Positions 9,008-36,110 of a stretch of DNA of 49,129 nucleotides are shown one piece after another; positions within the stretch are counted from its first letter, which is position 1; each line of letters opens with the position of its first letter. A program made the position numbers and the translations under genes. Location of the stretch: positions 156,312 to 205,440 of the forward strand of contig NW_003116457.1 in the NCBI RefSeq assembly GCF_000003605.2, read 5' to 3'. The notes under the pieces are model-generated. The model had not been told where the DNA came from and did no database searches. It saw only the letters and a list, made by a program, of their open reading frames with translations. The DNA comes from Saccoglossus kowalevskii (Eukaryota > Hemichordata > Enteropneusta > Harrimaniidae).

Positions 9008-10640
9008 ATGTTTCTTGTCTTCGATAATGCTTTTATTCACTATGGGACATGTACGCCAATTTTATTTTTGAATTGTCCGTTTACAACACAGGTTCTACAC
9101 AAACAATATATGGACATTAAACACGCAGTATTCTTAAATCCTCTACCCGCATTATTAATAGACTATGTATCTACTATAATCCTGAACTATCTAGTCACTT
9201 TATTTATTTTATTACTCGAAACTGATTCACGCCTGATTCATGAACCGTGTAACCCTAATTCGTGGTCCAATTTATTCACCATATTCCTGAACTGTCTTTC
9301 CACATTTATTATGAGTTGTTTACTCATCATATGCCTTCACTGTTTACACACCTTAATCATAAGCTGTGTACAAACACTGTGCTTTATTTCAACTCAATTG
9401 CTAGATAATCTGCCCACCCTCCTCCTGGATATTCCACACACCCGAATCTTTGGCTGTATACCCAGCCTTATTCTGAACTAAGCACGTACCATATCCCCGC
9501 ACAGACTGTCGACCGTGTCCTAGGACTATTTAATCACCTTATTCCTGGACAGTGAACCTATTTTATTTATGGTCAATCTCACCTGGGCTTTCTATTCACA
9601 GTATTTCTGACGACAATTAAACCTGTCATGAACTCTCCCAATTCCTAACTGGTTACCTGGCACATTTCAGAAACTGTCTACCCTCCAATTCCTAACTGGA
9701 TACTTGGTATATTTCTGAACTGTATACCCTCCCTATTCCTAACTGGCTACCCGGCATATTTCTGAGCTATCTACCCTCCCAGTTCCTAACTGGCTACCTG
9801 GCATATTTCAGAAACTGTCTACCCTCCCGATTTCTAACTAATCACCTAGCATATTTCAGAAACTATCTACCCTCCAATTCCTAACTGGCTAACCGGCATA
9901 TTTCTGAGCTGTCTACCCTCCCAATTTTTAACTGGTTACCTGGCATATTTCAGAAACTGTCTACTCTCCCAATTCCTAACTGGTTACCTGGCATATTTCA
10001 GAAACTATCAACCCTCCAATTCCTAACTGGCTACCTGGCATATTTCTGAACTGTCTACCCTCCCGATTCCTAACTGGTTACCTAGCATATTTCTAAGCTG
10101 TCTACCCTCCCGATTCCTAACTGGCTACCTGGCATATTTCTGAACTGTTTACCCTCCCGTTTCCTAACTGGCTACCCGACATATTTCTGAGCTGTCTACC
10201 CTCCTAATTCCTAACTGGCTACCTGACATATTTCTGAGCTGTCTATCCTCACAATTTCCAACTGGCTACCCGGCATATTTCTGAACTGTCTACCCTCCCG
10301 ATTCCTAACTGGCTACCTGGCATATTTCAGAAACTGTCTATCCTCCAATTTCTGACTGGCTAGCTAGCATATTTCTGAACTGTCTACCCTCCAATTCCTA
10401 ATTGGCTGCCCGACATATTTCTGAGCTGTCTATCCTCTCAATTTCTAACTGGTTAACCGGCATAATTCTGAACTGTCTACCCTCCCGATACCTAACTTGC
10501 TACCTTGTATATTTGACACAGTTAACCTATCCTACCTGCTATCCAGCATATTCCCAGGCAATCTAGAAACCTTATTTTTATACCGTCTACCCAGTATATA
10601 CCTGAACAATCTATCCATCCCACTGTTGATTATTGTTTCC
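9008..10640 (+). repeat. Satellite: diverged 24-bp monomers around a 47-bp dimer core
   Basis: From about 9060 to 9630 the DNA is a string of diverged 24-bp units of the type CTGTNTACNCANNTTATTCCTGAA. From about 9633 to 10500 this becomes 18-19 much more uniform 47-bp units, each made of a 23-bp half (CTGTCTACCCTCCCAATTCC + TAA) and a 24-bp half (CTGGCTACCTGGCATATTTC + TGAA). From 10500 to about 10640 single diverged units return. The 157-codon open frame at 9008-9481 is the translation of the 24-bp units and shows an 8-residue period of Leu/Ile/Cys-rich segments; it is unlikely to be a gene. Confidence 0.85.
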
Positions 10641-11057: not shown

Positions 11058-12302
11058 TTATGCGACTGTGAATGTGATTATATAGTCCGGATATGCCTGG
11101 TAATCATAGAAAACAGTAAACGCTTGTGGGTTGTTAACATTATCAGTCACCGAATCATAACGATCAGCTTGGTTAGATCCTTTTGGTGGTGGTGCCCGTA
11201 GTTCTTTGGAACCTTGGGTGTATTCGCCAACAAGAACTCGAGCTTCGAACATCCACTTCTGACCATTGCTATCTTTCGGAGAATATCTGTCTTGCATAGA
11301 GTATTCTGAGTTGATGGCAAAGTAACAGCCCTTCCCATACCAAGTCCCAGCTGTAAACACAAACATACATTATTGAGGGGCTGTATCTAGATAGACTCAC
11401 TGTCTAGACAGGTTTAACCAGTAACTTGCGCACTTATAAATTTACAACAATAGATGTATACATGAATATGTAGTTAGACTCTCCTCACCTGCATCTCCAG
11501 CATAGGATCTGTTAAAGCCATCATGCGCAATGCTGATCACAGAGTCCGCCCTGGTACCATGATATAGTGTCCATTCATTCTGTATTCTGTACATAGAGAA
11601 CATACGTTGCAGTATGAAAACTGTTTAAAATGATTTAGCATTGAATATATGCAAGTACACTCATAAACGTGTATTGTATTAACAGTGTCATATTACATCA
11701 AGACATTATAAGGCACGTGACCACATGTCATTACAATTACTACTACTGTTACATGCGGCCCAGTTAATTACATCCAATGTCTTACATATTCATGTGATCA
11801 TCGGCATTAAAATTTTAAATACCAGGTCAAAGAATGTTCCGTGCTACTCTTTTTGGCGCAATCAAATATGACTGTCAAATTACTACCTATCACTAATAAA
11901 TTAAAATAATTTTAAAATGCCTAGTATGCACTCACATTCAAAGAAAAAAAAACTTCCTTTAATTTAAGGGAAATTTATTTGAGGGTAACGGGAAGGAGGT
12001 TGATTAGTGGTCTTGTCCAATTAGACATTCAGTCATACAATAATTAGCGACAATGACGGATACTACTCACAACTTATTTTTATCTTCAAATGTTCTTTTC
12101 TTGATGGAGTATTGCTCGTATAATTGACGATTTTGTATACGTTGAATATTGTCCACACTTTTAAGCTTTTTAGCTGTTGAATTACGAAACCTTGTTTCAA
12201 CATCTTTGTATTCTTGTGTAGATGAACTTAACGGCACCAAATGAGGTTTATCAACGCGAAGGTCTTTCGGCATTTCTGTCCAATGTTTTGGAAACGCAAT
12301 AC
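11058..12302 (-). other. PARP14: PARP catalytic (ART) domain (exons 24-26)
   Basis: Starts at GIAFPKHWTEMP and ends the protein. The NAD-binding signatures are YHGTRADSVISIAHDGF (catalytic His about residue 1610) and YGKGCYFA (Tyr about 1643). The third triad position, in YPDYIITF near residue 1724, is Ile in place of the Glu of polymerising PARPs, giving an H-Y-I triad as in PARP10-like mono-transferases. All regions expected for an active mono-ART are present. Confidence 0.85.
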
Positions 12303-15300
12303 CTAATTGAGTAAAATATTGTATCAATATGTTCAGTACTTTGGGTGGAAATGTCAATGAATGAATGAATGAATGAATGAATGAATGAATAAAAAGTTTG
12401 TTAAAGCGGTTCACCCCATAATAACTCAATATATGAATACTATATGCACAAAGCAAGTTATCCCCGTTGGAAAAAAAAACTTTTATAAGTCTACGTCATT
12501 GGAACTCGTGTCAATACTATTAGTTCTGTAAAGAAAGAACTATTTTTACATAGTTCTAGTTTTCAAAATCGTCAGCAATGATAGTTGTTTTTACCTTCGA
12601 ACGTGATGACATTTGTGTTTGTTCAAATGGGGAAATACCTGTGATGTACGTGCCGTCTTTGACTCGTAATATTAAGTCACCTTTATTTTCCTGAGCTAAA
12701 CGAAGAAATAATTTTTAAATGTATGGTCGTGAGGGCACTTTCAATGTAGACAAATTACATACCTGTACTAGATTCTCTTTTAATCTTCCAGGTTTCCGCT
12801 GTCTGAATGTTTGTACATTGCTCCGCCTGTAAGTCAACGTGATACTGTGGTTCGAATTCATTTGGGATATAGACGCTTGTTTTCTTCTCGTTCAGTGCAG
12901 TCTCAATCAAAGTACTCTCCATGTCATCAAATTGATGATCACAATTTCTACTGTCGATATAGTACCTGTGTTAAGTATTACAGATATTAAATATATAAAT
13001 TAATTGCTTATTATTAAACCTCATGATATCGACAGCCAATAAGATTCGCGCATTACAGGTAGACGTATTGGGGTGTCGACCTGCTGTCTAACTTCATCCG
13101 GGTACCTTCCTTCCAAATTTACTTGATTTGCGCCAATAACAAGTACAATACGTGGCGATATTCACAAACTGATTAGATTGCCGGGTTTGCGTTAATTATT
13201 TCTATTAGAGAGAAAACTAGGATTTTGTAGCGATTGTGCGTGTTCTCCTGCATTTCATCAGTACGCTCAGCTACGCGCTTGGAGACATTCGATCCGCGAT
13301 TGCAGTACCTTAATAATCTTAGAGTCGTGGAATTTGCCGTTTGATGGCACCGTTTTGTTTGATTTTGTTTCGTTTTTGTGCGTTTTGACAGTATATAGAC
13401 ATATTATGTACAGTGTATTTGTTGAAAGAGAATGATGATGTCATGAACGTATACTGAAGCAGCATGCAACTCCGTGTTGAGCTCGCTTCAGCGTTATAAT
13501 GCGAACTGGAACGCATTTTGGCGTATAGCTGCATACAAGGTGGCATGGGTGACAATGGGATATTCGGGTCGCTAAAACTGTATGTCTTGTATTTGTATAA
13601 TGTTAATATACTATGTTTATCCTCCTATTTGAGAATCAGCACTTTCGACGTTTTGGGGTCTACGCACTTGAATTTAATTGTTATACAAAGAAGAAAATTG
13701 AATCGCACCATTTGACTTGTGCCCCACACAATTTCTCTATATCGGAGACTTTCTTCATATTATCCAATTCGTCACGAAACGCCTGTATGTCCCTCTTCAG
13801 CCCTTCCATGGATATTGTACTTAACTCTGTATTATACATGAAACATCAACAATATAGGATATTTAATATTCATATTTATAATGGTGAATAATACTGGATG
13901 AAATAATTTGAGAAGATATACCCAGGAAGATAGTAGACCCCGTCATCGTAGTAAGTAAATAATGTTGTATATAATTTTCAGCGTCACTTACGTTTATCAA
14001 TATGTATGTCTAAACATAAACACTCAGCTTTGTCTTGGATCTTTTTCAACCGATGGTAATTATAATCTGTTAAGGAATCCTGTTTATAAACATCATATTT
14101 CATCTGTTTATCTACAAAATCTATAACCGATTTCAGGCCAATCTCAACATCTTTGTCACTCCCAGCATAAACATGCACTTTTACTACTGCAGCTGAAGAA
14201 CGGAAGAAAAAGCATTAGCATATATTTCAAGTTCACGTAATGTTGTAAAACTAGCAAACAAAAAATTAAACTCTTTCTTTTCAAACCACGAAAAATCCAT
14301 TTTTAAAAACATTGTATTTTGATGACCAAAATTATTTGGCGAGAAAAGAGAATTGAAAATATCGCCACGAATTTAAATTAACAAATCTGACATAGGCTCA
14401 CCCAAGGAACCTCCATACCAAATATCGAAGCAATTATGCTGCTAGTTTGCAGGAAGTTTGAAATGACATTTTTGTATCAAAAATGACAAAAATATTCGCG
14501 CAAAATAGAGAATTGAAGTTATATTTATGAAATTAACAAATATGGCAGAGGACCATACAAGGTATCTACGTGTCAAGTATCAAAACAATTTTGTTTGGAA
14601 TTTACTGGGAGAAGTTGAAAATAGAAATTTTACAAAAATATTCGCCAAAAATAGAAGATATCGTCAGAAAATGAACAAAACTAACAGAGATCCACCCAAG
14701 GTACCTACAAACCAATTATCAAAGCAATTGAGCTGGTTGTAAAGAAGAAGAAGCTGAAAACAACATTCTTTAACAAAAATGACAAACTATTCGCTAAGAT
14801 ATGTCCTCGAAATGAACAAATCTGACAAAGGTCCACCCAAGGTACCTACGTACAAGTGCCAAAGCAAGAACAAGTTGAAAAAATAATATTTTACCAAAAT
14901 GACAACAATATTTGCAAAAAATAAAGAAATAGTGTTATCGTCATGAAATAAGCAAGTCTGTTAGAGGTCCACCCAAGATACCTAAATACCAAGTATCAAA
15001 ACAATTGTGCTCCCGTTTTCAAGAAGAGGTTCAAAATACAATATTTGACGAAGAATGGATGGACAACGACGGACAACACATATATGAATAGCTCCGCTCT
15101 GTCTACGATGACAGCGGAGGTTAAAAAATGACGAGTCCATGTAATATTTGTTAATTGTGAAATTTCCATATATTTACCATTAACCTTAAGAATATTCTCC
15201 TTGTGAGGAAACGGTCCCCATTGTCCAATATCAAGGGCTTCGTCCTTATATGTAGTTGTTGCATCTAGCTTTAATTTTAACTCTGTTAGAAAAGATGGGA

Positions 15301-18300
15301 CCATGCTTTTCTCAAAAACAATGAACCGGATCTCTCTTATCGACTGTGGGTTATTAAGCTTCACAAAATCAAGTACAGCATCTGTCATGTTTCGAGCTGC
15401 AGCATTTGGTGGTATTTTGAAGTACCCTGTTTCGAAAAAAGCGTAAAAGGTACTAGACATGCGATAGATGTACAAAAGAGTGTTCCTATTTCGTAGTGGT
15501 GGATGTATGTTCATTGTTCATAATTCAAATAACGTATAACATACCTGTTCCCATTGCAGGTAATGCAATCGATGTTACTTGATTGTTTTCGGCAAGCTGC
15601 AATAAGTCAATCACTGACCTTTTCATGTTATTTAAATTTGGTGTTACAGTGTGAAGTATCTTCTGGCAAGACAAGTTTCCTCCATCTTTAAATACAAAAC
15701 TTTAGATGTAACAGTTACATACACACCATACACTTATATTATCAAAATCAGATTAAATCATATGTTTTGCGATCGATGGAAAATCCTATGTCAAATTTGT
15801 ACTTTTTGTAAAGATCTTAATTCACTCCCTATAGAAGATAATGTATTAACGCATCGAGCCAAAAAAGCTTAATCGAAAATTTAACGATTTCTTTGTCAAT
15901 TTACCTGTTATAATTGGTCCTTTTCTAAGCTCTCTTTTTTTGACTGTATATTCCTTTCTAATAGACTTCCCTCCGTGTTTTATTATAGACTTCCCAATAG
16001 TACATAATTCTAGATAATTATATATATAAGTAAAATGTGCATGTACATACAATAGCCTATATTTGCATAATTAGGAGCAATGTGATAATAATGCTTTAAT
16101 GTAAACTTACCACCGTCATTAGCCACCGTGTTAACAATTGCATGTGAAGAACATTCAATAATATCGCCATGATGGACGGAAATAATAACCTTGTTGTCAA
16201 TCGTAAATTCATTTAATGCTACGGAATAATGAAAAATGCATCACAATTGAATAGCCCAGCAACTAGTCTTTAAAAGTATATGCTATCAAGTCACTGTTAT
16301 AAATTTGTATGTACTTGTTTTCATGCATTAACTGATGAACCGCCATTAACGACAATCCTGAAGTCTGGTTGACTATCCGCACCACACATAAAAAGAAAAA
16401 GGTTTTCGGCTGTTGCCATGGCAGGACATGAACGTGAAGCTAACGGCGGTTTATAGGTAAAACCGGGTCCTGTATACGAAGTTCGCAAAACACATTTTAT
16501 TTTTCAGAAGTCATTTCACTTTATTACTAGCACGTATTCTGTGCAACGTAACCAAAATAAAAAGCATGATCATTTGTACACTGCTGTTACAAGACTGATA
16601 GGAGGTAATACATTTGGGCGAATGTATTCAAAAATGAAATTTTTGGCTGTTGACATTGCAGCGAATGGCCAGGATTTTTTTCCAAATAGTGAAGGTATGA
16701 CCTGCCTGTCAATTATGAACAAAATCAGCCAAGCCAAACAAATCACAGGAGAGTTAAAAAGCCGTACAGTTGAAAAGTTGCACCAGCTTTGAGGTCAAAT
16801 TTCTGCTGAGTAGAATGGGGTATATCCGAGCTTTTTAATCTTAGAAGTGTAGGGTAAGACATATTTGGCGCAAATGTATTCAAACAATCAGTTTTTGGTT
16901 CTTGCCATGGCAACGGCGGGCCAGGAGTTTGTTCAGAGTTTACCACCTAAGCAGAGTGAAGGTGTGACTTGCCTACCAAAATTGGCAGTTCGATTACTGG
17001 TTAATATGCCACCCAGCATAATTGATGGCCGTCCATATTGAAACAATGTACCTGAGACGTTCATAGCATTACCAGTGGCTCCAGAGGCTGAAGGAAACCT
17101 ATTGAGTTCTGTGATGTAGGTACGTAACATTGCCGTCTGGAATATTACAATACGTATAGATGTCAATGTTGTTGGTTTGAATCCAGATATTGCGCCAATT
17201 ATTGCACATGCAGAATCTGTTGCAGATATGCCAAAGCCACCTGAAAAATTCAAATACTAAATTAACGTGGTTTTTCCTGAACCATTAGTGTTTAACTCCT
17301 GAATTTATCAATTTCATTCATTCACCTGTTCCAACAGCTGGCAGCGACACCGACGTCAATCCTTTGTTGTCTGCTTCCGCTAAACAGCTCTCTATAGCAT
17401 ATTTGAGTCCTTGTGAATTAGGGCATATAAAGTGAATGATTTTGGCACATCGAAGCTTTCCTGCATCTACAAAAAATGACAGTATATGAATACAGCGAAA
17501 TTGTTATCTCTAAAATGTTAAACATATAATAATAATATAACTGTCTTACAAAAGTTTAAAAGAAATTGTAATGAGACATTTGACCTAATTGACCCTATAA
17601 AAAACTAAAATTTAATAGTGGTAATATTATACATTATACAAGTGGACTAAAAATCACCCTCTTTAAACTCGCCCTGGCAAGTACGCTTCTTGGCCCTGAT
17701 AAATGTCGTGCGCTGTTAAGTTGCATTACTAAGTTGCTTGTTTTGAAACATTCCTCTCGTCTTTCTCTGTACCCATAATAAGCTCATTAGATTCATTCAA
17801 CTGATTTGTATGTACATAACCAATAAGTACGCAGTGACTTTTCCGTAAAAGACATGTTTTTCAGAGAAAGGTTAATATTGACAGTTAATTAGACTTCAAA
17901 CACGAGTTGATATGTGCGTCAAAGTATGAAAATATGCAAATATGGAAATACACCGAACGTTAGACGGACACAATTACGATGTAAACATAGTGTAATTATT
18001 ACCAGTTGTTATTGGGCCACTTTTCAGACCACTTTTGTACCGACTATACTGGTCTGCTACACTTTTACCACCATCTTTCACAATGGTTTGACCAATAATA
18101 CCAAATGCTAAAAAAAATTATAATAAAAAATGAAAATAGCATTTTGCTGTTGCGGGTAGAGACAATTAATGTAATGAGATTATGGTACCAGTAAATACAC
18201 CCTGCAAGTCAACACATTCTACACTATTTGCATATATTTTTAATATTGTAGCCCCACTCACGTGCACGTCAGACTATTGAGAATATACTGAGACATGTTC

Positions 18301-21300
18301 GTTGTAGAGCACTTCAAACAATTAAACTTACATAAATTTGAACTGACCGGATGGAGAATGGCATCACAATTTTCCTTTGTCAAATCACCTTGCTCAATTT
18401 CAACCGATATGTGACCCACAATTCTTTGATTGGATAATGAAGCTGCAACTGAAATATAATCGCAGTCTTTAATGAATCTTAACATTATATGTGAAACAAA
18501 TTAGCATAATACATTCTATGCATACTTTTTAAAAAAAAATGTGTTGTAAGATACAATTCATAGATTGTATCATTTTGTAAAACTGGTGTACGTTTTATCA
18601 AGAGAGCTAGACTAATTGCAATCTATAATATAATATAATATAATGTAATATAATACCCGAAGTTTTGCCATAAGTTGAACGCAATGCAAACAGCTTCTGA
18701 TGATCGCGAAGTCGTTTAAAGAAAGCGTCTGTCGTGTTCTTGTCATATACAACAAATGTTATCTCCTATAATGGTAGAAAGTTATTGGTAATATATGATT
18801 CAATTTGTATTGTTTTCTATAATAGGTAAACTGATTTTCAAACAATCGTGTCTCTATTCTCTACACAGATCGACGCATCCAAGCAACTAAATACATTGTA
18901 AATTGGAGGTTTTCGTTCAGAGACAACTGTACGTACCTGAAGATTACATCCTGGATGATTTTTGCTAAATTTGATAACCTCGTCAAAAAATATGAAAGCC
19001 ACTTCATCTTTTGGAAATCCCATGTAACCAGTACCGATAGCAGGAATGGCGATAGAAACACATTTACTCGCAGCATTCAAACACTTTGATATAACTGCCC
19101 TCAGTCGCTAACATAAAACACATAAAGATGATGTAGACCAATAACCAAAGAATGTTCAGTGTTTGCTGTAGTTCATGTTTTGTTACTAAATAACTAATAC
19201 TAATTTGCATATATCATTATATTAATATATCGTTTTTTAAATGAGTATTGACTGAAAGCATAATACATGATATATCTATAAGGATTCAGCTTTCTAGAAC
19301 TGTTTCTTTTAATAACTTTTTCATTTTCGTTTCAGACACTCCTGCTAAGTTGAAGGGAAATTATATTTACAATTTGTACGAAGTTTAGAATCTATTTCTT
19401 TTGAATATTTATTTTGACAATTTGTACGTCTCTATATTATTCAATGAATTGATTACTGAAGGAAAAATGTTATTATTACAGGATTGAATCGGGTGAAAAT
19501 CAATGACAGTATGCACGATTGCATATATTATAATATTCCACTTTAATATATAATACCCCAAACACGTGGAATGAGTGTACTGTACTTACTGATTCTCCTG
19601 TTCCACTATCCCATACACCAACTACTGCCAATATGATTTGTTTGCATGGAAACTTTCCTGGGTTAATAACTGCAATATCCCCATCCTTGACTTGTTTTAC
19701 TTTCTTGCATTCCTGAAAAGATGAATGGGTGGACATGAATAGGCATACATATCTGAAATACTTATGTAAAATAGAAAAATGCGGGGTATTACATTATCTG
19801 GTCTTGTTTTTGTTTTTTTGCGCATCTCATTAATATTTTCAAATATTATAAGATATCTAAGATGAGAACCGGCGTATTGATAATATGATAATAGATATGG
19901 AAAGAACACACAATAACACAATAACTCACATATTGTAGCACGGTTCCTGCCTTCTCGAAGACAGCTTTAGCAACACCAGTACGGAGATTCAAGTCGCTAC
20001 TGCATGGAAGTACAATATAGTCTGCCTGTAGAATATTTGTAATTACACACATCATCACTTTTGCATGAATAAAATTAATTGATAATATTATAACAATTTG
20101 CACACTGTGTAGCTTTGTATAGTTAGTGTTATAATATTTTCCTCTACGTCCACAAAAATATTTCTTTCACAGTGTTGTCAAAATCCTGAATAAACAAGTC
20201 AAAATACCTTCTTATCAGCTATACTTCCAGTGACTATTTTAACAGATGTTCTTTCCAGAGTTAGCAAATCATTGGATCCTGGAGGCGAAGACGAAGGAAC
20301 ACCTGGAGGTTTCAAGACGGTAGCCTTTGTAAGTGCCCCCTGTGAATATAAGGCAACGTAATATCTTAGGCATGTGTGAGTGAATGAGTAAATGATATAT
20401 ATTGCCAGCATGCATTTTAGTAAAGTTACAATACCTCTGTCGCAACACTATACACACACTCTTTCTCTTCTCCAATTGGTTTCAATAGTACTTCACCATT
20501 ATCGTAAAAAAATAGCTTGCACTCTCCTACAAAATCAAACAAGTAAGAGTTAACAATGTATACACAAGTGTAATTTGATCGCCTTTAAAATGCAAGGCGA
20601 GGGATTTCGTTGTTCTGTTATATATTCAATGTAGCATTTTCTAGAATTGTCAAGTAACACTCCAACAAAAGAATAACTTTTTAAATGAAGACAGACCTAC
20701 TTCTTGGAGTGACACGTAATGTACCATCTTTATGTACAACTATAATACTCACCTTTCTTAGTAAATGTTGCACACTTAGCCATTCTTTTAATACTGGTTG
20801 ATAGCTCAGTAAGCTTCTCGTGTGCAAGTTTCAGACCCTGTGAAGTCCCTTGAATGATAATCTTATTTTCTTGTGAAAGTATACTAACATGGTGTTCACG
20901 AAGAGATTCAGCAATTTGACGATGAGGCTGATACTTAATCATGTAGCTCAATACGGCTGGCTCAGTTGAAAACACACATTTCATTTTTACATTTCTTTCT
21001 ATGAATTGTTCAAGCTTTTGACAGACTGGTATAACATGGTCCTTCACACCAACTACTCTCAGTATTTTTCCCTCACATTTCTGTTTGACCATATATTCCT
21101 GCTGCAAACTGGTGGCGAATTGTTTGTATTTATCCCCCTCCAAAAATCTACTATTACTTTTTATCACTATTTCATTTTCAATGAACGCATCGTCCAACAT
21201 TTTTTTGACGGTTTTTATTTCGCCACTAGTCATTCCAGAAATAGTAACACTATCACCATCAAAATTAATTGCTGCCTTCAGTTTGTTCTTTTGCATCAAT

Positions 21301-24250: not shown

Positions 24251-24297
<47 letters not shown>

Positions 24298-27200
24298 GTC
24301 ATTTGCTTAGTCATTTGGTCATTTATTTATTTAGACATTAATGTGACTTTTCTACTTGAAAATGTTTACCTAAATGTCTTCATCATTAAGGTAATGCAGT
24401 TTGAACCTCATACCAACCCCTCCTAATAAGCTAGTAATTCGGAACATATCTAATGTAAGATACCCTAATTTAAAATAAACATCTTGCTCAGACCAAAATT
24501 ATTCAATCAGAGGGTGTCTATAATACCCTATCTATTATAAGCATTTATATGGAGTGAAAGAACAAGGTTATATACACTGATAAATTCACACTCATATTAG
24601 CCAGGGATATGCAAAGAAACAAACAAAAAAAGTACCTGTAGGGTCACTAAAATAAACCAAAGCAGAAGTCCCTTTGATAGTCACATGGTCCACATCACCG
24701 CCGCCACTTTTTCTCTTGTTTTCAAAGTATAACTCTAATGTATCACTCGTTATATTTGAGGGCAGCCCAGTTACCAATACACAGTCTGTAACACCCGTAG
24801 GTGAGATTTTCACTTTCCGTTGGTTAATACTTTTTTTCCTTGTGTTCATTTCAGTGGTGTCGAAGTCTGTAAGTATGTATTGCGAACAAAGTTCCACTTA
24901 TGACAAAATGTTATAGTTTTGTATTATTTGATTTCATTTCAGTTTTATTAAAACAATTACCTATGTTTTCCTCAAACATGACTAACGCTTTTCCGTTATT
25001 GGCCTTGTAATACATTCTGTCAACTCCTATATCACCTGTAACACTTTCCATGAAGTACAACAATGCATCATAAGATGTATTTGGAGGGATTGACTGTGAA
25101 GAGAAGAACCATACAAGGAACATTGTGATGATTGTATCATGCTTACCTGTGATATGCTCGTAGGTTTATATAAAATTCTTTAACAAATATTACTTTAATT
25201 CAATAGGTGATCATTGGAAACTTTTACAAAAGTCTCAAGGTACATACCTCAACCAATAATCTTGTGCATTCATTTTCTTCATCTGCAGATTGTTTCACAG
25301 TTAGCTTGGCGCCATTGATTATATGAGTACGTCCGAGGACAGTTGGTATTACTAATCAATTGAAATGAAAATATGATAATATTACTGGTAGCTACAAAAT
25401 TATGCTATTTTTCACTGTTTGGGAGTCTATATTTATGCATCTAGGTATACTTAATAGTACTGTTATTTACTGTTATTAGGGTGTCCGAGCCCTCTTGTTA
25501 GAGTTCTGATTTTTACGGGTTCAAGCGTAAATGGCTGAATCTTTATTATTATTGTCCGTTTTTTTCTATCTTTACCAATTGGAACTTGTGCACTTCACTT
25601 CAAAATGCTAATAAGTCAAATGGTTATCTTGAAATTTTCTATTGCCAATTTTATTCCAAATAACGTGAGATCATCAAACTAGTTGCGCAATGTCACGTAC
25701 GTACGTAACGTACGCTCATTTCCTCCAGCGGTCTCAAGAAAAAGTCGATGTATGGATGATTGGTCCAGGAATCCTGTGGCTTAATCTACAGCGAAATTAA
25801 AAATGCCATACTTCACTCATACTTCATATCCAATAACGATAGTGCCTTTTGTTACTATCAAATCAAAAATTGTTTTCCACTTCCTCCGCCGTTTAATATG
25901 TCAAGCTTTTTGAGAAAACTGCTGACCTGAATGCACATTTTTGAATTACTTGTTGTACACAGTACACAAAAAAATAATGTAATGTATTTGTTTATTGTAT
26001 TATTTGTTTATTATAACGAATTACGTGTTGTACACGAGGCGTTTATGTAGGTATGTATTAATATCGTAGTATAAACTGATTTGAAGCCTAGATGGGCGCA
26101 TTTAACACTACAGTACACATGTCTCAAAGTCGAGCTACGTGCCCCAGCTGCGCCCCTAAGGTGTTGAATTTATTCGTGCTGTTAAAGTCAACATTATCAT
26201 AATAGCTAATATATTTACTCAAAAATGTATACAACTATACCTACATATTAACCATATCTATAATTTTGAAATAGGTCAGCTGAGTATTATTGGAGTAATT
26301 ACGCCCACAAAAACATTTTACGACGATGATGCACAAAAAATATTATTATTACGTTTAGAGGGGGTGTTCGCGACAGTCGAATCTTGAATGCTTTGATAAG
26401 GATATGACTGATATCAATCTTGAAATGAATGTAATTGTTGTAATATACTGCTTGTAATGAGTGCAGTTTACAACATAGGGGTAATAACTACAGGCAAAGT
26501 CCAGCATGCTAATACCATGAGCAAACAAAAAGTCATTCCCTACTTATCCGTCGATCAGTGCACACCCCTTCAAAATCCTTATCAACTGACGTTCTACGTG
26601 TTATAAATTGTTGAAGTTTTTATTGATAGGTTGAGGGAAGGTCATTTTAAAGTGGCAAAGCCTATCATTATTTTGGAGTTAATGTACAGTTAACTAGAGA
26701 ATAATCATGACGCTCTGCTTCATTTTATATATTGCTATTTTCAGTACGTTTCTTGTGGGAGTGTATAGCCAGAATATCTATGCGTGTAACGATAAACTAT
26801 AAATCTCAGGGCTTTATTTAGGTAGTAACAGCAACAGTAAATTTGCTAATCAGTTTTCAATTAGGATATTCTTCATAATAGCAATTACTAAATATTTCTA
26901 GATAGCGGGTCCTAAACACCTAACCCATACACAAACCTGACACATAAACAGAACAACTACAACATAACAAACTGTAGGCGATGTTTTGAATTCCCAATCT
27001 TTTTTTAACAACTATAAATCGGGCGAAGGCTTGGCAGCATGAGATCGGAATGAATCGGTAACTATAGGTGCCCTGGTGAGCTAAAACATCCTCTCAGACG
27101 TCCAGCTCAACGATAAACAACACTGCCAACTCACTGCCTGTTAATATATGATGCACTGGTGAGCATCGTCGTAGAATTGCTGAAGTACTTCATTTCTAAA

Positions 27201-27390
27201 ATATGAAAAGTTTCTTACCACTGTCGTCTTCATAACTTATCCGGTATTTGTTCCCAATTCTCTCAATCTTTGATATTTCTCCACCGCCAGACCGTCTCTT
27301 GTTTTCAAAATAATTCTCAATGGTTTCTTGATCCGTGTTTTCTGAAGCACCGTATATGTATAAGACGGAATTCGTGCCGGCAGACGCCAT
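11058..27390 (-). CDS. PARP14: PARP14-like mono-ADP-ribosyltransferase (RRM-KH-macro x3-WWE-ART)
   Basis: Spliced gene of 26 coding exons (5'->3'): 27390-27219, 25351-25248, 25093-24961, 24866-24636, 22225-20753, 20526-20435, 20339-20208, 20025-19930, 19712-19590, 19107-18937, 18765-18657, 18448-18332, 18107-18003, 17466-17326, 17240-17052, 16218-16111, 16009-15905, 15685-15545, 15426-15178, 14192-13992, 13826-13709, 12965-12763, 12695-12639, 12302-12071, 11586-11489, 11350-11058. All junctions are GT-AG and keep frame; the sum is 5193 nt, 1730 residues, close to human PARP14 (about 1800). The start is the first ATG after an in-frame TGA (MASAGTNSV). Domain order matches PARP14: RRM-like segments (about 1-245), KH-like array (255-735), macrodomains (745-945, 946-1130, 1131-1330), KH-like segment (1331-1436), WWE (1437-1523), ART (1530-1730). 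Family role: transfer of single ADP-ribose units to proteins in antiviral and stress signalling. Splice boundaries are my own reading and lack transcript support. Confidence 0.9.
12355..12390. repeat. (ATGA)n microsatellite
   Basis: About nine ATGA units in intron 23 of the PARP14-like gene, roughly 50 bases upstream of the exon 24 acceptor on the coding strand. Confidence 0.9.
12639..14192 (-). other. PARP14: KH-like segment and WWE domain (exons 20-23)
   Basis: Exon 20 starts with VVKVHVYAGSDKDVEIGL and exon 21 is helical, like the KH-like segment before WWE in PARP14. The first WWE Trp codon is split by the exon 21/22 intron (TG|G), giving VKWYYIDSRN; MESTLIETAL and QYHVDLQAEQ follow. WWE domains bind ADP-ribose-containing ligands or proteins. 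In exon 23 the donor is taken at ACATCACAG|GTATTT because only this keeps frame with exon 24. Confidence 0.75.
14330..15060. repeat. Tandem repeat, about 140-bp unit, five copies, in intron 19
   Basis: The block CCACCCAAGGTACCTAC recurs with variation at about 14399, 14552, 14692, 14832 and 14968, spacing 153, 140, 140 and 136. Each unit also carries ATTCGCNAAAAATAGA and TGAAATNAACAAATCTGACA. The array is followed by GAATGGATGGACAACGACGG and a GC-rich hairpin-like end near 15085-15120. It is probably the internal repeat of a non-autonomous element. Confidence 0.65.
15178..16218 (-). other. PARP14: Macrodomain 3 (exons 16-19)
   Basis: Exons of 108, 105, 141 and 249 nt, all phase 1, parallel to macrodomain 2. 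Motifs: IISVHHGDIIECSSHAIV, NTVANDGELCTIGKSI, CQKILHTVTP, IALPAMGTGYFKIPP, IREIRFIVFEKSM. It keeps NTVAND but lacks the downstream GGG run. Reader function is plausible; hydrolase function is not supported. Confidence 0.75.
16219..17051. other. Intron 15, with a diverged direct duplication
   Basis: Blocks at about 16590-16740 and 16845-16985 share GAATGTATTCAAA, GGCCAGGA and GTGAAGGTNTGAC(C/T)TGCCT in the same order. An extra partial copy of the CTGTTGCCATGGCA word is at about 16410. No exon is seen here. Confidence 0.45.
17052..18448 (-). other. PARP14: Macrodomain 2 (exons 12-15)
   Basis: Exons of 117, 105, 141 and 189 nt, all phase 1. Motifs: ISVEIEQGDLTKENCDAI, IIGQTIVKDGGKSV, CAKIIHFICP, VSLPAVGTGGFG, IRIVIFQTAML. 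The first Asn loop is HPVSSN and the GGG-type glycine run is missing, so the ADP-ribose pocket is altered. Exon sizes match macrodomain 3 closely. Confidence 0.75.
18623..18656. repeat. (TAATA)n microsatellite at a splice donor
   Basis: A short pentanucleotide run with one interruption begins right at the donor of exon 11 (last base 18657), so the 5' end of intron 11 is microsatellite. A far longer run of the same pentamer forms an intron of the partner gene at 33.5 kb. Confidence 0.85.
18657..20339 (-). other. PARP14: Macrodomain 1 (exons 7-11)
   Basis: Macrodomain order is visible: VKIVTGSIADKKADYIV, then GVAKAVFEKAG, FPCKQIILAVVGVWDSG, IAIPAIGTGYMGFPKD and the final strand EITFVVYD. The loop that is VNAAN in canonical macrodomains reads VLPCSSD, so the key Asn is missing, while GTGYMGFP is kept. 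Exons 7-10 begin and end in phase 0, unlike the phase-1 exons of macrodomains 2 and 3. Likely a non-catalytic or weak binder. Confidence 0.75.
20753..22225 (-). other. PARP14: Large exon 5: KH-like array of the PARP14-like gene
   Basis: One 1473-nt exon holds about 490 residues, far larger than the other exons (57-293 nt). It starts with an RRM tail (VLKHDQCICRTNITVYPFYD), passes an acidic linker (DDNNDSDDGKN) and continues as repeated alpha-beta units such as IIIQGTSQGLKLAHEKL and VTISGMTSGEIKTVKKML, the pattern of degenerate KH domains in PARP14. GXXG loops are mostly absent, so RNA binding through them is doubtful. Confidence 0.75.
22226..24635. other. Intron 4 of the PARP14-like gene
   Basis: 2.4-kb intron. 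It contains a TA-rich run at 22497-22534 and a (TTTA)n run at 24249-24297. I see no exon: the open frame at 23165-23398 lacks splice support. CCTGTAGAGGGCGC at 23950-23963 is one mismatch from the CTCF core, but the AGAGGGCGC core is frequent in this window. Confidence 0.6.
24249..24297. repeat. (TTTA)n microsatellite
   Basis: About twelve near-perfect TTTA units within intron 4 of the PARP14-like gene. Confidence 0.95.
24636..27390 (-). other. PARP14: N-terminal RRM-like exons 1-4 of the PARP14-like gene
   Basis: Exons 1 and 4 encode related RRM halves that share YFENKR[R/K]SGGG followed by an acidic residue, a signature of PARP10/PARP14 RRMs. Exon 2 supplies the second half of the first RRM (VLGRTHIINGAKLTV). 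Exon 3 encodes a diverged RRM half (ALLYFMESVTGDIGVDRMYY). The repeated signature points to internal duplication. These domains are expected to bind RNA or protein; canonical RNP aromatics are weak, so RNA binding is uncertain. Confidence 0.75.
26402..26594 (+). repeat. Direct repeat copy A, in intron 1 of the PARP14-like gene
   Basis: Matches 27993-28191 over nearly its whole length, with core identity over TTGTTGTAATATACTGCTTG, GTTTACAACATAGGGGTAAT and AACTACAGGCAAAGTCCAGC. Both copies lie in plus orientation, one on each side of the first coding exon. Confidence 0.85.
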
Positions 27391-27530
27391 ACCTTCACGC
27401 AGCAATCAACGATGTTACACCTGTCAAAACTAAAAGGCTGCACTGAAGTGAATGCGGAACTTTTTTTAATTTTGTTTGTTGAAGTACATCTATTGTTTCA
27501 ATTCGGCGAACTTGCTTCATGTAGAAATAA

Positions 27531-27541
27531 GGGGATTTCCC
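27531..27541 (+). promoter_or_regulatory. Perfect Rel/NF-kB-type site
   Basis: GGGGATTTCCC fits the GGGRNWYYCC consensus fully and is 141 bases upstream of the PARP14-like ATG. Such sites are bound by Rel-family factors in animal innate immunity. Binding here is inferred. Confidence 0.5.
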
Positions 27542-27992
27542 TGCAACATGGTGTGAGTAAAAGTAGCCAATCAAATATCACTACCTAATCGAATCATTTA
27601 CGTATAATCCTTTTGCAGAGTGTATACGTGTTGGCGACAACGATTACATTTCTGCCACTTCAGCTGCTAACAGAGGTTAGTGTAGCGCACACTCGTGCGA
27701 TTGATGTCTACATATGCAAGCGGGAATTCTCTGTACTTGTCAAAAGGTAGGTTATTACCTGTGGCACTAGTCAATATACATATCAAATCGACGTGTCAGG
27801 GTTATACAGGTTGGCTGTTTGCAGTTAGCTTTAGAACACCGCTGAGCGGAAAATGGCGCACCAAACTTTCAAAATGTTGGTCTTGTGGTTCTACGGGTTA
27901 ATCAAATAGATTCTTATATTGTCAGGGAGGGGGTGGTGTGGTGGATACCCGACTAAATTGAATTAAGCTAGTTGCTTATGGACTACTTATTT

Positions 27993-28191
27993 ATATGACT
28001 GATATAAATTTTGATTTAAGTAGAGTGAAATTGTTGTAATATACTGCTTGTAATTGGGACAGTTTACAACATAGGGGTAATAACTACAGGCAAAGTCCAG
28101 CATGCTAATACAAAGAACAAACAAAAAGTCATTCCCGACTTATCTTTTGATCAGTGCACAGGGTGTGCAACATTCCCATCAACTGACGTTC
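27993..28191 (+). repeat. Direct repeat copy B, between the divergent genes
   Basis: Partner of 26402-26594. It probably lies in the 5' UTR intron of the plus-strand gene. Differences are scattered substitutions and small indels. Confidence 0.85.
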
Positions 28192-28765
28192 CATTAAAAC
28201 ACTTCATCCACGAACAGACATTGTGATACGTTCATGGATATATAACAGCTAAAATAGTAACATAAAACAATGAGTTACTTCATAACAGAGCAAAATATTA
28301 AAGTATCTGTTTATCTGTCCTTGGGCATGAGGTTAAGCTCAAATCTATTTTTTATTTATTTGTTCAACATATTATTTTCTGTGACGAGTGAATTGGCGTA
28401 TTTTTATTGTATAATTGTATAAGAACAGTTTTAGGTGGTCATTTAGACCTTTTCAAAATTGGAATACAAGATACCTGATGGATATAATATACCAACATTC
28501 CCTAGCAACCACAGATAATACCCATGACAACCAACCTAAATCGGCATCTCTGAAGCATGTTTAACATTACAATTTTCAAAACCTAAAACATAGTATATTG
28601 ATATGAATAATAACCATAATCATAAACATAATGAGATGGCCCTAGAGCAAATGTAGGAATAGTAAGATAAAACAAATAATTTAAAAGTACGGCAGTATGA
28701 CAGTAATAACAACTATTTACTTGTTGCATACTTTTGTTTACCTTCAATGTTATTTCAGAAACATA

Positions 28766-31700
28766 ATGTCAAACACAAGGACGGTTCTGGTTGTAGGTCT
28801 TCCGGATACTACAAAGAAGTGTGTGCTTGAAGAATGGGTGAAGAAGTTTATTAATAAAGATTTTGAATTGAAATATCAGCTTGGCTCAACAACTGCGTTG
28901 GTAGTATTCAGAAGAAAGAGAGGTATTGTTTCCCGTCTATAAAATAATGAAACTTTTTTTGACAGTAGAGTTCAATATGTGTCTGAATCGTATATATGCT
29001 TTCATGTCAAATAAGCTGTCCACTGAACTTGATTTGCATTGTGTCGTTTCCTTGATGGTGTTGATAGAAATTTGTTCGTGAGAATTTAGCAAATTACAAA
29101 CCAACAAATATAACATTGCCGATAATGATAGTGTACGTGTATTAGGTTGAACTCAAAATTGTGATAACATTTTCAATTCATTACCTTTGACGAATATTTT
29201 AGTGAATATTTTTGTCAGTCTGGTGAAAAATACTAAATACAACAATCTGCTTTCAGATTACTGATTGGTCAATTACTTTCATGTTGAATATTAGAAAAAA
29301 TCGAAAGTGATTATTTTATCCATGCGCTAGGGACATTTCGTTTTTCGTTTATTTTATCATTGAAATGCCTATTTTTAGCAAAAACAGTAGACGATATTTT
29401 AACAGAGGAGGTATTTTTCACATTTAAGTGTATCATGTGTAACAGAATGCAGTTACTGATTTAAAAATAAAATAAGTTTTTAAGTAATGTACCAGCTACA
29501 CCAGTACTCGGCAATAGAGTCCATTACTGTGAATAATTTGTAGTGATGAAACCGTGCAACTCACTTCTTTTGACAATATATTGTTAGGTCTTTAAGGAAC
29601 ATTGTCTACTATTTGATCCTTGAGAGGGTCTGCAAGTAAATAGTCACAAACAGCTCAGATAATATAATTATATTAGATTACACTAACTTTTCATCATATT
29701 TTTTGCAGATGCATGTACATTCTGCAATACGAAGAGTCCAATAAAAATAAAAGATAGAGCACTTGACGTGTTGCCATGTTGCCAAGTAGGTTATTTTTTT
29801 AAGTTATGTTACACATTCCGAGTTTTTAAGGGTGGTATTAATTAAGTTTTTAAAGGTAAATATAATGTCAACAAATTTTTGGAAATATTCTGATACTTAT
29901 TGGTCATTGTCATATGTGAATTTAAAAAGTTTTACCCCATTTACATCATGTTTACGATGTTAAACCACCTGATGTGGCAGATTTGATATTGTTATACATC
30001 AGCAACAGAACGTACTGTAAAACATGTCTTTTTAGCTAGCATGTTGTTTTAGCTAATTTAACTAATATGCAATTTCGCTAATTCAAGATGTCGCTAATTT
30101 AAAATAAATTATATTCTCACAATAAGATTAATTGTTGACACTTAAATTAAGATTCAGTTGATTGTCCTTATTTATCTTTCTTTCCATATTCTAAATAGTT
30201 TATTATGTTGAAAATAAATGGCAATATTAACATTTTATGTTTATCCAAAAAAATTATGAAGCATGGCTCAATCACCAGTGTAAATAACTGTGCAATAGAG
30301 CAAAAAAGCTGTATCAGGGAAAGAAACGTCAGATTAAGATTACATCAGTACCTAAGAATAATGGTCGACAATCTAACTGAAGTGTGGTTATATTTATTGA
30401 AACATGAAACCAGAACCTAATAAACTTTAAACCTATATTTGTTTTGTTTTTTACATTTAGGTATTCTCCTTTCTAAACATGAAGTGTGCACCGTGGGTCA
30501 GTGTTATTTACACGCACATCAGAGACACAATAACTACAAATGGGTTACGTTTTGATAATAAAATGCCTCTAGAAATGTGTGGTGGGCTGGGTTCAATTTT
30601 AGACGCAATTGAAGCATTAATGCAGAATTTAAACCTAATTCGTTTTGATAAAGGGGACATTGGTGAGTATATATTTATATAGTTTAGCTTATGCTAAATG
30701 CTATGCTAAGTTAAGCAGGTTTAGGTTCTTTGCTCGAATTGGGTGGGGTGATTGGTGGGGGCGTGGGGGGGGGGGTAACATACTTTATTCATTTCTGAAA
30801 CTAGCTTGTAAAGTGGATTTTTGCCAACAATTGTTAACCTTTTAAAAGCGTCGATCAATGACTACATTTGCTTGTCAGTTCGTTTGTATGGTGTAATATA
30901 TATGGTGTTATATAATTATCGTTTTTAGGTTCAAAGCTATTGAATGTTGCGTATATTTATAAAGTTTCGGATGAAGTATCGCAATCATCACTTGAAAGTG
31001 ACATCAATCGCCAAGGTAATGCTAAACTATACTTGAGACAAGCAGGACAACGGGATGCACTGGTGATTTTCACATCTGAAAATGGTAAGGCATATTTCTG
31101 TTTTTAAATAATATTCTCACCTATAATTGTGTAGCGATTTGCGTAACAATGCCAAACGTTCAAACTGGATATCATGTTGTTGTTTTTTTTTCATTTATAA
31201 ATATAATTGAAAACAAATCTATTCTTCAGTGCAAAATAGAATTATTCACATTTTCATATTTCGTAATTGTTTGACCAAGGTCATAAGGTTGTTTCGAATA
31301 TTTCATTATGTTTTCACACCTTCGCTGAAATAGGATACATTGCAATTGTGGTTTTTGAATCAACAATCACACCATTCCGTTCGTCTGTCAATACTTATGA
31401 ATGAGTAGGCAGACTAGTGAAATCTAACTCCCGCTTTACGGCCAATAGAGCATCCATTGCTGCAGTGAATTGATTCGTTGACAACAATCTGTCATTTTTT
31501 ATACACATTTATATCCGAGTCACTACAATATCTTATAATAGACCCCAATAGAAATAACGACCACTACTGCATTCCATGCCATGTGCAACTATACTAACAT
31601 GCTCAGATATTTACTACACAAATTGCAGCACAAGTTATTCGTATTGTATTCGTTATTTGTACTCACGCATTAATGCATTGTTATATTTATATATTTATCT

Positions 31701-33731
31701 CAAAAGATGCAAGGCATTTCACTGAGAAAGATCATAACCTATATAAAGTAAGGAGATGTGAACAGGTATGAAATATCTTTTTCATCAGTTTGTTATGCTC
31801 TAAGTGTAAACATGTTCGATGACAAAATGTAATCAAACTTCATGAGGTCTTACAGAGAAAGTATTTTTCATTGTATCAGATATTTGACTCTGGAACCGCG
31901 AAGGGCGAGACATGGTTGAAATTGGACGGCAAACGCATTAAACAGATCGCACGGGACACAAAAGTGGAAATACTTCCAGCTGATACACCAACATTCAATG
32001 GTACCTTACAAAATCTGATGGAATTTAACAACTCAATAACAACTGAGTATATTAATGAAAGACACGAGTCTGCCGATTGTAGGGATGCTCTGTTTCCCCT
32101 TCGAGAAATGACGAAACAACAGAACAACAATAACTTACCTTCCGGACATGGAGAGGCATCAAACCAAAATGTCATTACAACGTCTCATATGAATGAGACT
32201 GGGAAGTATGATGTAGCCAGTGGAAGATTACCATCCAATGAACAATGTAAAACAATCCCATCTCCTGAAATAATGACTGACACCCTTGACGTTGATGAAG
32301 ATATATTAAAATATATGAGCAAAACCAAACAGACAGAATTGAGAGACATTGAAAAACGGTATTATGTCGATATTCAAACAAACCCATCTGGTTTCACGAT
32401 AAACGGTAAAGCCCACTCATCCCCCCAAAAGGTTAATGACGCGAAAGAAGTCGTAGGCTCCATTTTAACCCAAATACTACCGAATCTTGAGTCGACTAAC
32501 AATGTAGTAGATGTGAGTTCACATCGTGTTGCAGTGTGTGTGCTACGGAAATCAATTGACAAAATTAATGATGAGCAACCCCATATATACGTAAAGAATA
32601 ATTTGAACCAATTTGAGATCATATTTTATGGTGAATCCAGATATGTATTCCCAGCAATAACGAAATTCAAATGGTACATTAATGAATCACGGGAACAAGA
32701 CGACGATGATTCTACGAGTAGTCAGACGGCGTCGATCTCAACTAATGCAACTGCAGATTACTCAAGTTCATCTAGATGTTTGAAAACACCTGCAGATGCC
32801 GAGTTAACAGATTTATTGAGAAAAGGGAAGTATGCGTTTACAACTAATGAAGGGATGGAAATTGTCGTTAAAACAGATGATATAGTGAGGCAGAAAGTCA
32901 ACGCCGTTGTTAATACTGCAAATGACACTTTGGAACACGGTGGTGGAATCGCAAAAGTCTTAGTCAAAGCAGGTGGATTCATAATACAGACAGAGTCCAG
33001 AGCACATGTGAAGAAATATGGTTGTCTTAGAGTCGCAGAAGTTATGCATACCAGTGGTGGAAAGATGTGCAAATACATCATACATGCTTACGGGCCTCAA
33101 TGGAAACTTCATGGACCAAAGAGTTTGGATTTACTATATGACACAGTAATGAACGTCCTTACTTATGCTAATGAAATATTACATATTGAATCACTAGCCA
33201 TTCCAGCCATCAGCTCGGGTAAAGTATATATCAAACATGCACAGTTGATTGTAAAACATTCTAGATGACTATGTTTCTTATTGTAATGTTAAGTATTACT
33301 GTAATCTTTAAATATTTATTCGTTTTCATTATCTTACAATATAGGTGTGTATGGTGTACCGAAAGACATGTGCGCAAAAGCAATGTACAGAGCCTTGTCG
33401 GATTTTTCGTCAATGTATTGCGGAAGACGTTGTAAGACTCGCAAGGTTTCATTTGTCAACATAGACCGTGAAACAAACAACGCATTCATAAGAGAATTCT
33501 ATCAACAGAACATGGAACGCGCGTATGGTAGTAGGTATAATATAATATAATATAATATAATATAATATAATATAATATAATATAATATAATATAATATAA
33601 TATAATATAATATAATAATATAATATAATATAATATAATATAATATAATATAATATTTCAGATATGGTTACCCAGATCCAACCTACTTGTCCCGAGTGAA
33701 AAGCGAGTTGGCAGCCAAGGGTGTCAAATGA
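28766..33731 (+). CDS. RRM/KH-macrodomain protein, PARP14/PARP9/DTX3L-like, no ART
   Basis: Eight coding exons: 28766-28922, 29709-29785, 30461-30662, 30929-31084, 31707-31765, 31856-33218 (or start 31880), 33345-33534, 33662-33731. Frame is kept throughout; both choices for exon 6 are in phase, giving 757 or 749 residues. The N-terminus is an RRM-like fold (TVLVVGLPDTTKKCVLEEWV). Exon 2 has four Cys (CTFC, CC). Exons 3-5 look RRM-like. Exon 6 holds KH-like segments (ILKYMSKTKQTELRDIEKRY), a Ser/Asp-rich linker, and a macrodomain from about residue 545 to the end. The macrodomain keeps VNTANDTLEHGGGIAK and IPAISSGVYGVPKD, the ADP-ribose loops of the PARP9/PARP14 first macrodomains, some of which hydrolyse ADP-ribosyl bonds. 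The protein stops after GYPDPTYLSRV and no ART exon follows. Function is inferred; the exact ortholog is unclear. Confidence 0.8.
30741..30776 (+). other. G-quadruplex-prone G-rich run
   Basis: GGGTGGGG, then GGGGGCGTGG with an 11-G tract: four runs of at least three G within 36 bases on the coding strand, about 80 bases into intron 3 of the macrodomain gene. It is isolated in AT-rich surroundings. Confidence 0.5.
33535..33661 (+). repeat. (TAATA)n microsatellite that makes up a whole intron
   Basis: The 127-base intron 7 of the macrodomain gene is almost only TATAA/TAATA units (about 24, with one phase slip near 33615). The donor is GTATAATATA and the acceptor TAATATTTCAG. Only the last few bases, TTTCAG, are outside the repeat. 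Exon phases (2 to 2) and the macrodomain tail show that it is spliced out. Confidence 0.9.
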
Positions 33732-34249
33732 TTTAAAACCAGAACCAGTTCCTGAGTTAACGCAGTTAATCTATCAGATCTGTAATATTTGTTCCGTCTA
33801 TGTATATTATATATATTATACATATATTGAGTAGCAACATGTTGATGATGATCGTTTAACATTTTGTGTTGTAACTGATCATCAAAATAGTATTATTGTT
33901 ATTGTTAATATTGTGAATTTTTAAAGGTGACAATATTCGTAGTTTTATAGTGTGTGCTGACTCTGAAGAACACTGACGTTGCTAGTATATTAAAAAATGT
34001 ATTTATATTGCCACGTATTTGTTTAAAATAGTAATTGAGATTTTAGTTAAAACAGGCTAAAACATAATAGTATCTTATGTAACGTGTTTTCTGCGTAGAT
34101 TGATATGAGCGTTTTACTTGTGAGTTATGGCGGGGGTTGCTTTCTTTAATTAAACATTCATTTTTCCAGAATGTAAATGACTTTAGCTGTTTTCACCAGC
34201 TCGTTGACCAGCGTTCCACAGCGCAGAGTCTATAGAAATCATGGTACAG

Positions 34250-34335: not shown

Positions 34336-34343
34336 AACTTTGT

Positions 34344-36046: not shown

Positions 36047-36110
36047 TTATTTATTTACTCTGCATAAAGTATAGCACATATAATAATAATAATGTTTATT
36101 TGCCATAGAC

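Follow-up and report, generated by a model that had tools for sequence, protein, structure and literature searches.

A divergent PARP14-family gene pair in Saccoglossus kowalevskii: a putative ADP-ribosyltransferase gene and a partner with an MD1-type macrodomain and a DTX3L-like tail

Introduction

In vertebrates PARP9 and DTX3L are separate proteins that form a complex and are encoded by divergently transcribed genes; the literature treats PARP9 as a partial duplicate of PARP14 that exists in vertebrates only, and DTX3L as the ligase which partners it as a separate protein. The vertebrate PARP9-DTX3L pair was reportedly described by Juszczynski et al. in 2006 as having an interferon-gamma-responsive bidirectional promoter. 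Here we analyse a head-to-head gene pair in 49,129 nucleotides of the genome of the hemichordate Saccoglossus kowalevskii (contig NW_003116457.1, positions 156,312 to 205,440; the whole stretch is referred to as the window and coordinates are counted from its first nucleotide). It consists of a PARP14-like gene for a predicted enzyme of antiviral type on the minus strand (27390-11058) and a partner on the plus strand (28766-33731), both multi-exon and represented by spliced in-silico models. Judging from the sequence we consider it probable that this is a divergent PARP14-family pair in which the minus-strand gene encodes a writer of ADP-ribosylation with reader-type macrodomains and the plus-strand gene combines an eraser-type first macrodomain (MD1) with a DTX3L-like tail.

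It is unusual for a PARP14-like gene to lack a catalytic-type MD1 and to lie next to a gene that appears to have MD1 only, since Delgado-Rodriguez et al. hold three macrodomains with an active MD1 to be the ancestral state of the macroPARPs (PMC10221186). According to the same report, conservation of the key residues in the second and third macrodomains (MD2 and MD3) is poor among metazoans, and PARP9 occurs in jawed vertebrates alone. The MD1 of PARP14 reportedly removes ADP-ribose from what PARP14 itself has modified, be it protein or nucleic acid, and that of PARP9 reverses the PARP14 modification in trans (PMC10499325), so that a trans-acting eraser is biochemically reasonable. PARP14 MD2 and MD3 are reported to bind proteins that carry ADP-ribose but not to hydrolyse the modification (PMC10470015), and Deltex ligases to ubiquitylate ADP-ribose via their RING and Deltex C-terminal (DTC) domains (PMC7615817).

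Gene models of the divergent pair

The locus was modelled as follows:

11058..27390, minus strand: PARP14-like gene, 25 coding exons, 1702 amino acids, complete from ATG to stop, frame open throughout, introns GT-AG
27391..28765: intergenic region between both start codons, 1375 bp
28766..33731, plus strand: partner gene, 7 coding exons, 683 amino acids, all six introns GT-AG

The head-to-head pair is real as a gene model. The two divergent multi-exon genes which a first-pass annotation had placed here are recovered by the spliced models, including the stop codon of the plus-strand gene, whose last exon ends at 33731 as given there. The exons of both models were selected manually among listed splice sites using home-made splice matrices, and the main support for the models is provided by open frames and domain continuity. 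The main exon of the plus-strand gene stays open for 446 codons (probability of no stop about 2e-14 at its own base composition), and the domain matches lie far above the cut-offs. A recent inverted duplication as the origin of the pair was rejected, as no inverted repeats of at least 60 nt (seed 14) were detected in 11000-34000.

The PARP14-like gene

The minus-strand gene contains the following parts, listed from its N-terminus:

24636..27390, minus strand: three RRM units (exons 27390-27219, 25351-25248, 25093-24961 and 24866-24636, ending in the next exon; Pfam RRM_PARP14_3 in three stretches, E 3.6e-40)
20753..22225, minus strand: large exon with PARP14-type KH region (Pfam KH_PARP14_2 E 1.4e-7 and KH_PARP14_5 E 1e-5, region alone)
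18657..20339, minus strand: macrodomain A, probably MD2-like or a decayed MD1, without hydrolase motifs (LPCSSDLNLRTGVAK, GTGYMGFP)
17073..18442, minus strand: macrodomain B, apparently MD3-like, without hydrolase motifs (best PDB match PARP14 MD3, 64.6 bits)
15178..16218, minus strand: macrodomain C, apparently MD3-like, without hydrolase motifs (best PDB match PARP14 MD3, 83.5 bits)
12763..14192, minus strand: linker and WWE domain (Pfam WWE E 2.3e-4, amino acids 1426-1491)
11058..12302, minus strand: ADP-ribosyltransferase (ART) domain with the triad H-Y-A (PARP15/PARP14 chains, 172 bits, E 1.5e-49)

The predicted protein matches the Pfam families PARP (E 4.1e-19) and Macro (three stretches, E 2.4e-39), the three tandem macrodomains preceding the ART domain, which agrees with the domain content previously claimed for this gene. 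KH_PARP14_2 falls just under its cut-off when the whole protein is searched. Among the PDB sequences the ART domain is nearest to the PARP15 and PARP14 chains (172 bits), followed by PARP10 (125 bits). Its His (YHGT) and Tyr (GCYFAINSEYS), which we take to be residues of the NAD pocket, align with PARP14 and PARP15. At the third triad position the alignment places an Ala (PQAFTVFYD) against the Leu of PARP14 (PSLFVAFYD) and PARP15 (PKLFVVFFD), the latter being presumably the triad residue; in active mono-ADP-ribosyltransferases this residue generally belongs to the Ile/Leu/Tyr class. Thus, the triad is H-Y-A and not H-Y-I as given in the first-pass annotation, which presumably took its I from the motif YIITF farther along.

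The intron that separates macrodomain B from C contains two 70-bp direct repeats (16613-16682 and 16865-16934, 74% alike); shorter related pieces were recognised by eye. Just downstream of the gene a tandem array of a 47-bp unit extends over 9635-10514 (18.7 copies, 82% matches).

The partner gene and its hydrolase-type loops

The plus-strand gene is composed of:

28766..29789, plus strand: RRM-like unit 1 (exons 28766-28922 and 29709-29789; weak Pfam match to RRM_PARP14_3, E 0.033, below cut-off)
30929..31765, plus strand: RRM-like unit 2 (exons 30929-31084 and 31707-31765; weak Pfam match to RRM_occluded, E 0.013, below cut-off)
31880..33218, plus strand: main exon with a linker, two segments that look KH-like by eye and the larger part of the MD1-type macrodomain (starting at about 32835; Pfam Macro E 2.9e-21 on the genomic frame)
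33345..33534, plus strand: end of the MD1-type macrodomain, from the GVYGVP loop onward
33535..33661, plus strand: intron of 127 bp, almost wholly (TATAA)n (Tandem Repeats Finder array 33536-33656, 24.6 copies)
33662..33731, plus strand: terminal exon with about 22 C-terminal residues of the DTC domain and the stop codon; acceptor TTTCAG

All five RRM units, the three of the minus-strand gene and the two of its partner, carry one phase-1 intron (for instance LVYFSDPT/VV, LVVFRRKR/DA and LVIFTSEN/DA, the stroke marking the intron) at a position that we take to be where the fourth strand ends. Since this intron lies at the same place in each unit, two RRM-like units were read in the plus-strand gene.

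According to Torretta et al. the motifs N(6x)GG[V/L/I] and G[V/I/A][Y/F]G mark mono-ADP-ribosyl hydrolases and are absent from PARP14 MD2 and MD3 (PMC10470015). Both are found in the single macrodomain of the plus-strand gene (NDTLEHGGGI and GVYG; Pfam E 8.7e-27), which keeps the loops VNTANDTLEHGGG and SSGVYGVP as previously noted, and neither occurs in any of the three minus-strand macrodomains. Among eight reference macrodomains both motifs are present in PARP14 MD1 and 1spv/YmdB and both are missing from five (PARP14 MD2, PARP14 MD3, PARP9 MD2, PARP15 MD2 and macroH2A1.1). The altered loops of the minus-strand macrodomains are therefore real, but the peculiar decay that the first-pass annotation had seen in them is not, as PARP14 MD2, MD3 and other references look the same: the loops probably represent the usual reader state rather than a special decay, and B and C, at least, resemble ordinary readers of the MD3 type.

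No second macrodomain (MD2) was detected in the plus-strand gene model or in the downstream plus frames, and no ART or PARP domain in the model or in any of the three plus frames of 33551-48552. The claim that this gene lacks an ART thus stands, and a missed ART exon farther downstream was rejected on the same absence of PARP matches. Sequence supports a separation of writer and eraser-type domain into two genes: the ART gene either lacks MD1 or has it in decayed form, and its neighbour possesses it with both motifs intact.

Based on homology, the minus-strand protein would mono-ADP-ribosylate its targets and its reader macrodomains would hold the modified proteins, while the MD1 of the partner would remove ADP-ribose attached to acidic side chains or to the ends of nucleic acids. 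Both genes would be transcribed from one promoter region.

The Deltex-like tail and the (TATAA)n intron

A feature absent from the first-pass annotation is that the final exon of the plus-strand gene appears to be that of a DTX3L-like Deltex gene. Exon 33662-33731 encodes YGYPDPTYLSRVKSELAAKGVK followed by a stop codon. In the genomic frame it matches the end of the DTC profile (positions 112-133 of 133, E 9.2e-5) with 23.1 bits, below the cut-off of 25, whereas the joined protein exceeds this cut-off (positions 110-133 of 133, 29.0 bits, E 1.4e-6). Compared with PDB sequences the tail is nearest to DTX3L (3pg6, E 5.5e-6), followed by DTX2 (0.0012) and DTX1 (0.054), and 16 of its 23 residues are identical to the aligned DTX3L segment. 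The exon is in frame with the macrodomain exon ending at 33534, the intron between them is GT-AG and the stop coincides with the domain end. The partner thus seems to combine PARP9 and DTX3L features, and the parallel previously drawn to the vertebrate PARP9-DTX3L pair next to PARP14 is closer than was argued, as the plus-strand gene carries a DTX3L-type tail.

The RING domain and positions 1-109 of the DTC profile are absent from the plus-strand model and the downstream plus frames scanned; the (TATAA)n intron is the place where they would be expected. Three histories fit this arrangement: the stretch between two TATAA arrays was deleted, exons were lost where the assembly was joined, or a terminal exon was captured. 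Most likely the plus-strand gene would descend from a gene that united MD1 with a Deltex RING-DTC ligase module, whose ligase part would since have been deleted between TATAA arrays or else lost in the assembly. If its RING-DTC were complete, the protein could ubiquitylate ADP-ribose; as the window stands, it should not.

Loss of exons in the assembly leads to a first rival explanation. Under it the assembly has collapsed at the (TATAA)n junction and the real plus-strand gene is of the type RRM-KH-MD1-RING-DTC, which would make its product a complete ubiquitin ligase directed at ADP-ribose and equipped with an eraser. This explanation is compatible with the pair proposed above and differs only in how the ligase part was lost. 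The intron being an almost pure TATAA array, an assembler could misjoin there, and a tail with the observed identity to DTX3L was judged too well kept for an old relic. However, the join preserves the frame and has GT-AG sites, for which the chance is about one in three, and no other RING or DTC piece was detected in the frames scanned. We regard a collapse as possible but rather doubtful.

Macrodomain classes

In the comparison with PDB sequences 9qyd was taken by us as PARP9 MD1 and 3v2b as PARP15 MD2. The entries 3Q6Z, 3Q71, 4ABK and 5AIL represent PARP14 MD1, MD2, MD3 and PARP9 MD2, respectively (PMC10470015). The plus-strand macrodomain scores 105 bits with PARP9 MD1 and 79.5 bits with PARP14 MD1, and macrodomain A 62.4, 61.9 and 44.9 bits with PARP14 MD3, MD2 and MD1, where all values are best single-domain matches, the two-domain chain 3vfq summing higher for both domains as it matches twice.

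In a tree of 12 macrodomains the plus-strand domain groups with PARP9 MD1 and PARP14 MD1 against the other nine (Shimodaira-Hasegawa-like approximate likelihood ratio test (SH-aLRT) 94.2, ultrafast bootstrap (UFBoot) 93), its nearest neighbour being PARP9 MD1 (87.7/87). Its placement as MD2 or MD3 is rejected by the approximately unbiased (AU) test (p 0.008 and 0.004) and by the Shimodaira-Hasegawa (SH) test (0.026 and 0.020). B and C are sisters (94.2/93) and A joins MD2 weakly (76.2/38). For B as MD2 together with C as MD3 the tests disagree, the AU test rejecting it (0.005) and the more conservative SH test not (0.098). Taken together, the plus-strand domain is apparently MD1-type and closest to PARP9 MD1, B and C are probably MD3-like, and A is either MD2-like or a decayed MD1.

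The intron positions add to this picture. B and C have three phase-1 intron positions in common, whereas A contains four introns that are all phase 0, which suggests that A (20339-18657) and B/C (18442-15178) are of different origin inside one gene. One phase-1 position is common to the plus-strand domain (PAISS/G), B (PAVGT/G) and C (PAMGT/G). Directly before A there is no space for an MD1, since the introns beside the 92-bp exon located there measure 226 and 95 bp.

These results also bear on a second rival, according to which the minus-strand gene is an ordinary PARP14 whose MD1 (A) is catalytically dead and its neighbour a tandem PARP14-like duplicate truncated by chance, with no division of labour. 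Grouping A with MD1 survives the AU test (p 0.15; as MD3, 0.36), PARP14-like genes are reported to be often duplicated and often close together on the chromosome (PMC4245714), and the catalytic residues of mammalian PARP14 MD1 to have been lost at least three times (PMC10221186). On the other hand, the full colinear order of A as MD1, B as MD2 and C as MD3 is rejected by the AU test (p 0.0001), though not by the SH test (0.063), and A scores higher with MD3 and MD2 than with MD1. The plus-strand frame is intact with both hydrolase motifs kept, and truncating a PARP14 leaves the DTX3L tail of this gene unexplained. This rival seems unlikely, slightly more so than an assembly collapse.

Several points weigh against the divergent writer and eraser-type pair as proposed here. 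On the plus strand both RRM-like matches are under the Pfam cut-offs, the KH-like segments of the main exon are without Pfam support, and the N-terminus gave no match to PDB sequences up to E 5. At least one negative-scoring splice site occurs in four of the six plus-strand introns; the sites at the tail junction are weak (donor -1.2, acceptor -0.7), and a macrodomain exon that runs on would reach an alternative stop at 33550, inside the TATAA array. PARP9 MD1, the nearest relative of the plus-strand domain, has loop 1 only, its loop 2 (GIFQ) failing the strict pattern; since this domain is reported to be active (PMC10499325, PMC10221186), the hydrolase motifs are an imperfect predictor. The tree comprises 12 short, divergent sequences, with PARP9 MD1 lacking its C-terminal part, and the AU result for A as MD1 makes a decayed MD1 possible. 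To our knowledge, H-Y-A is not the triad of any active human PARP.

That the plus-strand gene is a decaying relic, its ligase half gone and the rest a pseudogene in the making, would fit the loss of RING-DTC and the negative-scoring splice sites but is improbable in view of the 446 codons without a stop and a complete macrodomain with both ligand-loop motifs.

Intergenic region and putative promoter

The plus-strand gene may have a 5' non-coding exon, as suggested by an acceptor at 28759, just before its ATG, and by a donor at 27746 (score 5.3); both transcription starts would then lie within a few hundred bases of each other. The following element was recognised between the genes:

27531..27541: kappaB-like site GGGGATTTCCC, the sole match of the exact 11-mer in the window

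The count of the pattern GGGRNNYYCC was equalled in one of 300 shuffles of the intergenic region, this being one of nine motifs tried; the exact 11-mer was chosen after being seen and weighs little. The kappaB-like site is thus suggestive only. Motifs of the interferon type were rejected: three patterns for interferon-stimulated response elements (ISRE) or IRF sites had no match in the intergenic region and neither had TTCNNNNGAA. TTCNNNGAA occurred there once against 0.26 expected and was equalled in 69 of 300 shuffles.

Transcripts annotated as DTX3L and PARP14 in Aplysia are reported to belong to two different co-expression modules, both enriched for orthologues of oyster immune-response genes (PMC8195618), which supports an immune role in molluscs and not a tight co-regulation.

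Other features of the window

A multi-exon gene of glycosyl hydrolase family 9 (GH9, cellulase) is located at 41786-46918 on the plus strand, with the best stretches per frame at 42972-43139, 43697-43885 and 44002-44163; by eye, an upstream frame looks CBM2-like and the frame 46541-46918 GH9-like. As vertebrates are not known to possess GH9, this gene points to a non-vertebrate source. Open frames at 37460-38551 (plus strand) were taken by eye to resemble a degenerate Penelope-type reverse transcriptase; the frames scanned there are free of Pfam matches up to E 0.1. A run of 50 N (36111-36160) marks an assembly gap downstream of the plus-strand partner gene. Searches of the window yielded no Rfam matches at gathering scores and no tRNAs with ARAGORN.

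Comparison with known systems

A bolder interpretation, which we put forward tentatively as one that may well prove wrong, is that the plus-strand gene represents a natural fusion of the PARP9 eraser macrodomain with the DTX3L Deltex ligase, divergent from a PARP14 writer that would have lost its own MD1. If true, the PARP14/PARP9/DTX3L module would predate the vertebrates as a two-gene switch of writer versus eraser-ligase, and a single ancestral protein would either have been split to give the PARP9-DTX3L complex of vertebrates or stand as a parallel to it. A PARP9-type macrodomain and a DTX3L-type tail in one non-vertebrate gene, head to head with a PARP14 without a catalytic-type macrodomain, bear directly on the origin of the teamwork between writer, eraser and ADP-ribose-directed ubiquitin ligase, and the locus allows one to test in a natural setting whether both functions need to reside on one chain. 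Among the matches listed in the open-licence literature (titles and abstract openings) neither a macrodomain-Deltex fusion nor a PARP14 without MD1 is described, which is weak evidence of absence.

The minus-strand gene equals PARP14 (ARTD8/BAL2) in its RRMs, KH region, three macrodomains, WWE domain and PARP14/15-type ART. It differs in the lack of MD1 hydrolase motifs, in two MD3-like macrodomains and in the Ala that replaces Leu as third triad residue. PARP14 has its MD1 in one chain with MD2 and MD3, whereas here the MD1-type domain and macrodomains A to C belong to different proteins; the efficiency of PARP14 MD1 is reported to be higher when MD2 and MD3 are attached to it (PMC10470015).

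The plus-strand gene resembles PARP9 (BAL1), whose MD1 is its nearest macrodomain and which likewise lies divergently beside a second gene from the pathway; unlike PARP9 it has neither MD2 nor ART and possesses an RRM-like N-terminus and a Deltex tail. To DTX3L (BBAP) it is linked by its terminal exon, which fits the DTX3L C-terminus better than those of DTX2 or DTX1, and by its RRM-like N-terminus, which recalls the RRM-KHL region reported for DTX3L (PMC11080071). In contrast to DTX3L, it lacks the RING domain and positions 1-109 of the DTC profile and carries a macrodomain where DTX3L has none.

Finally, the bidirectional PARP9-DTX3L locus near PARP14 likewise places two genes of the same pathway head to head, but in S. 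kowalevskii the PARP14-like writer itself is the divergent partner of the PARP9/DTX3L-like gene.

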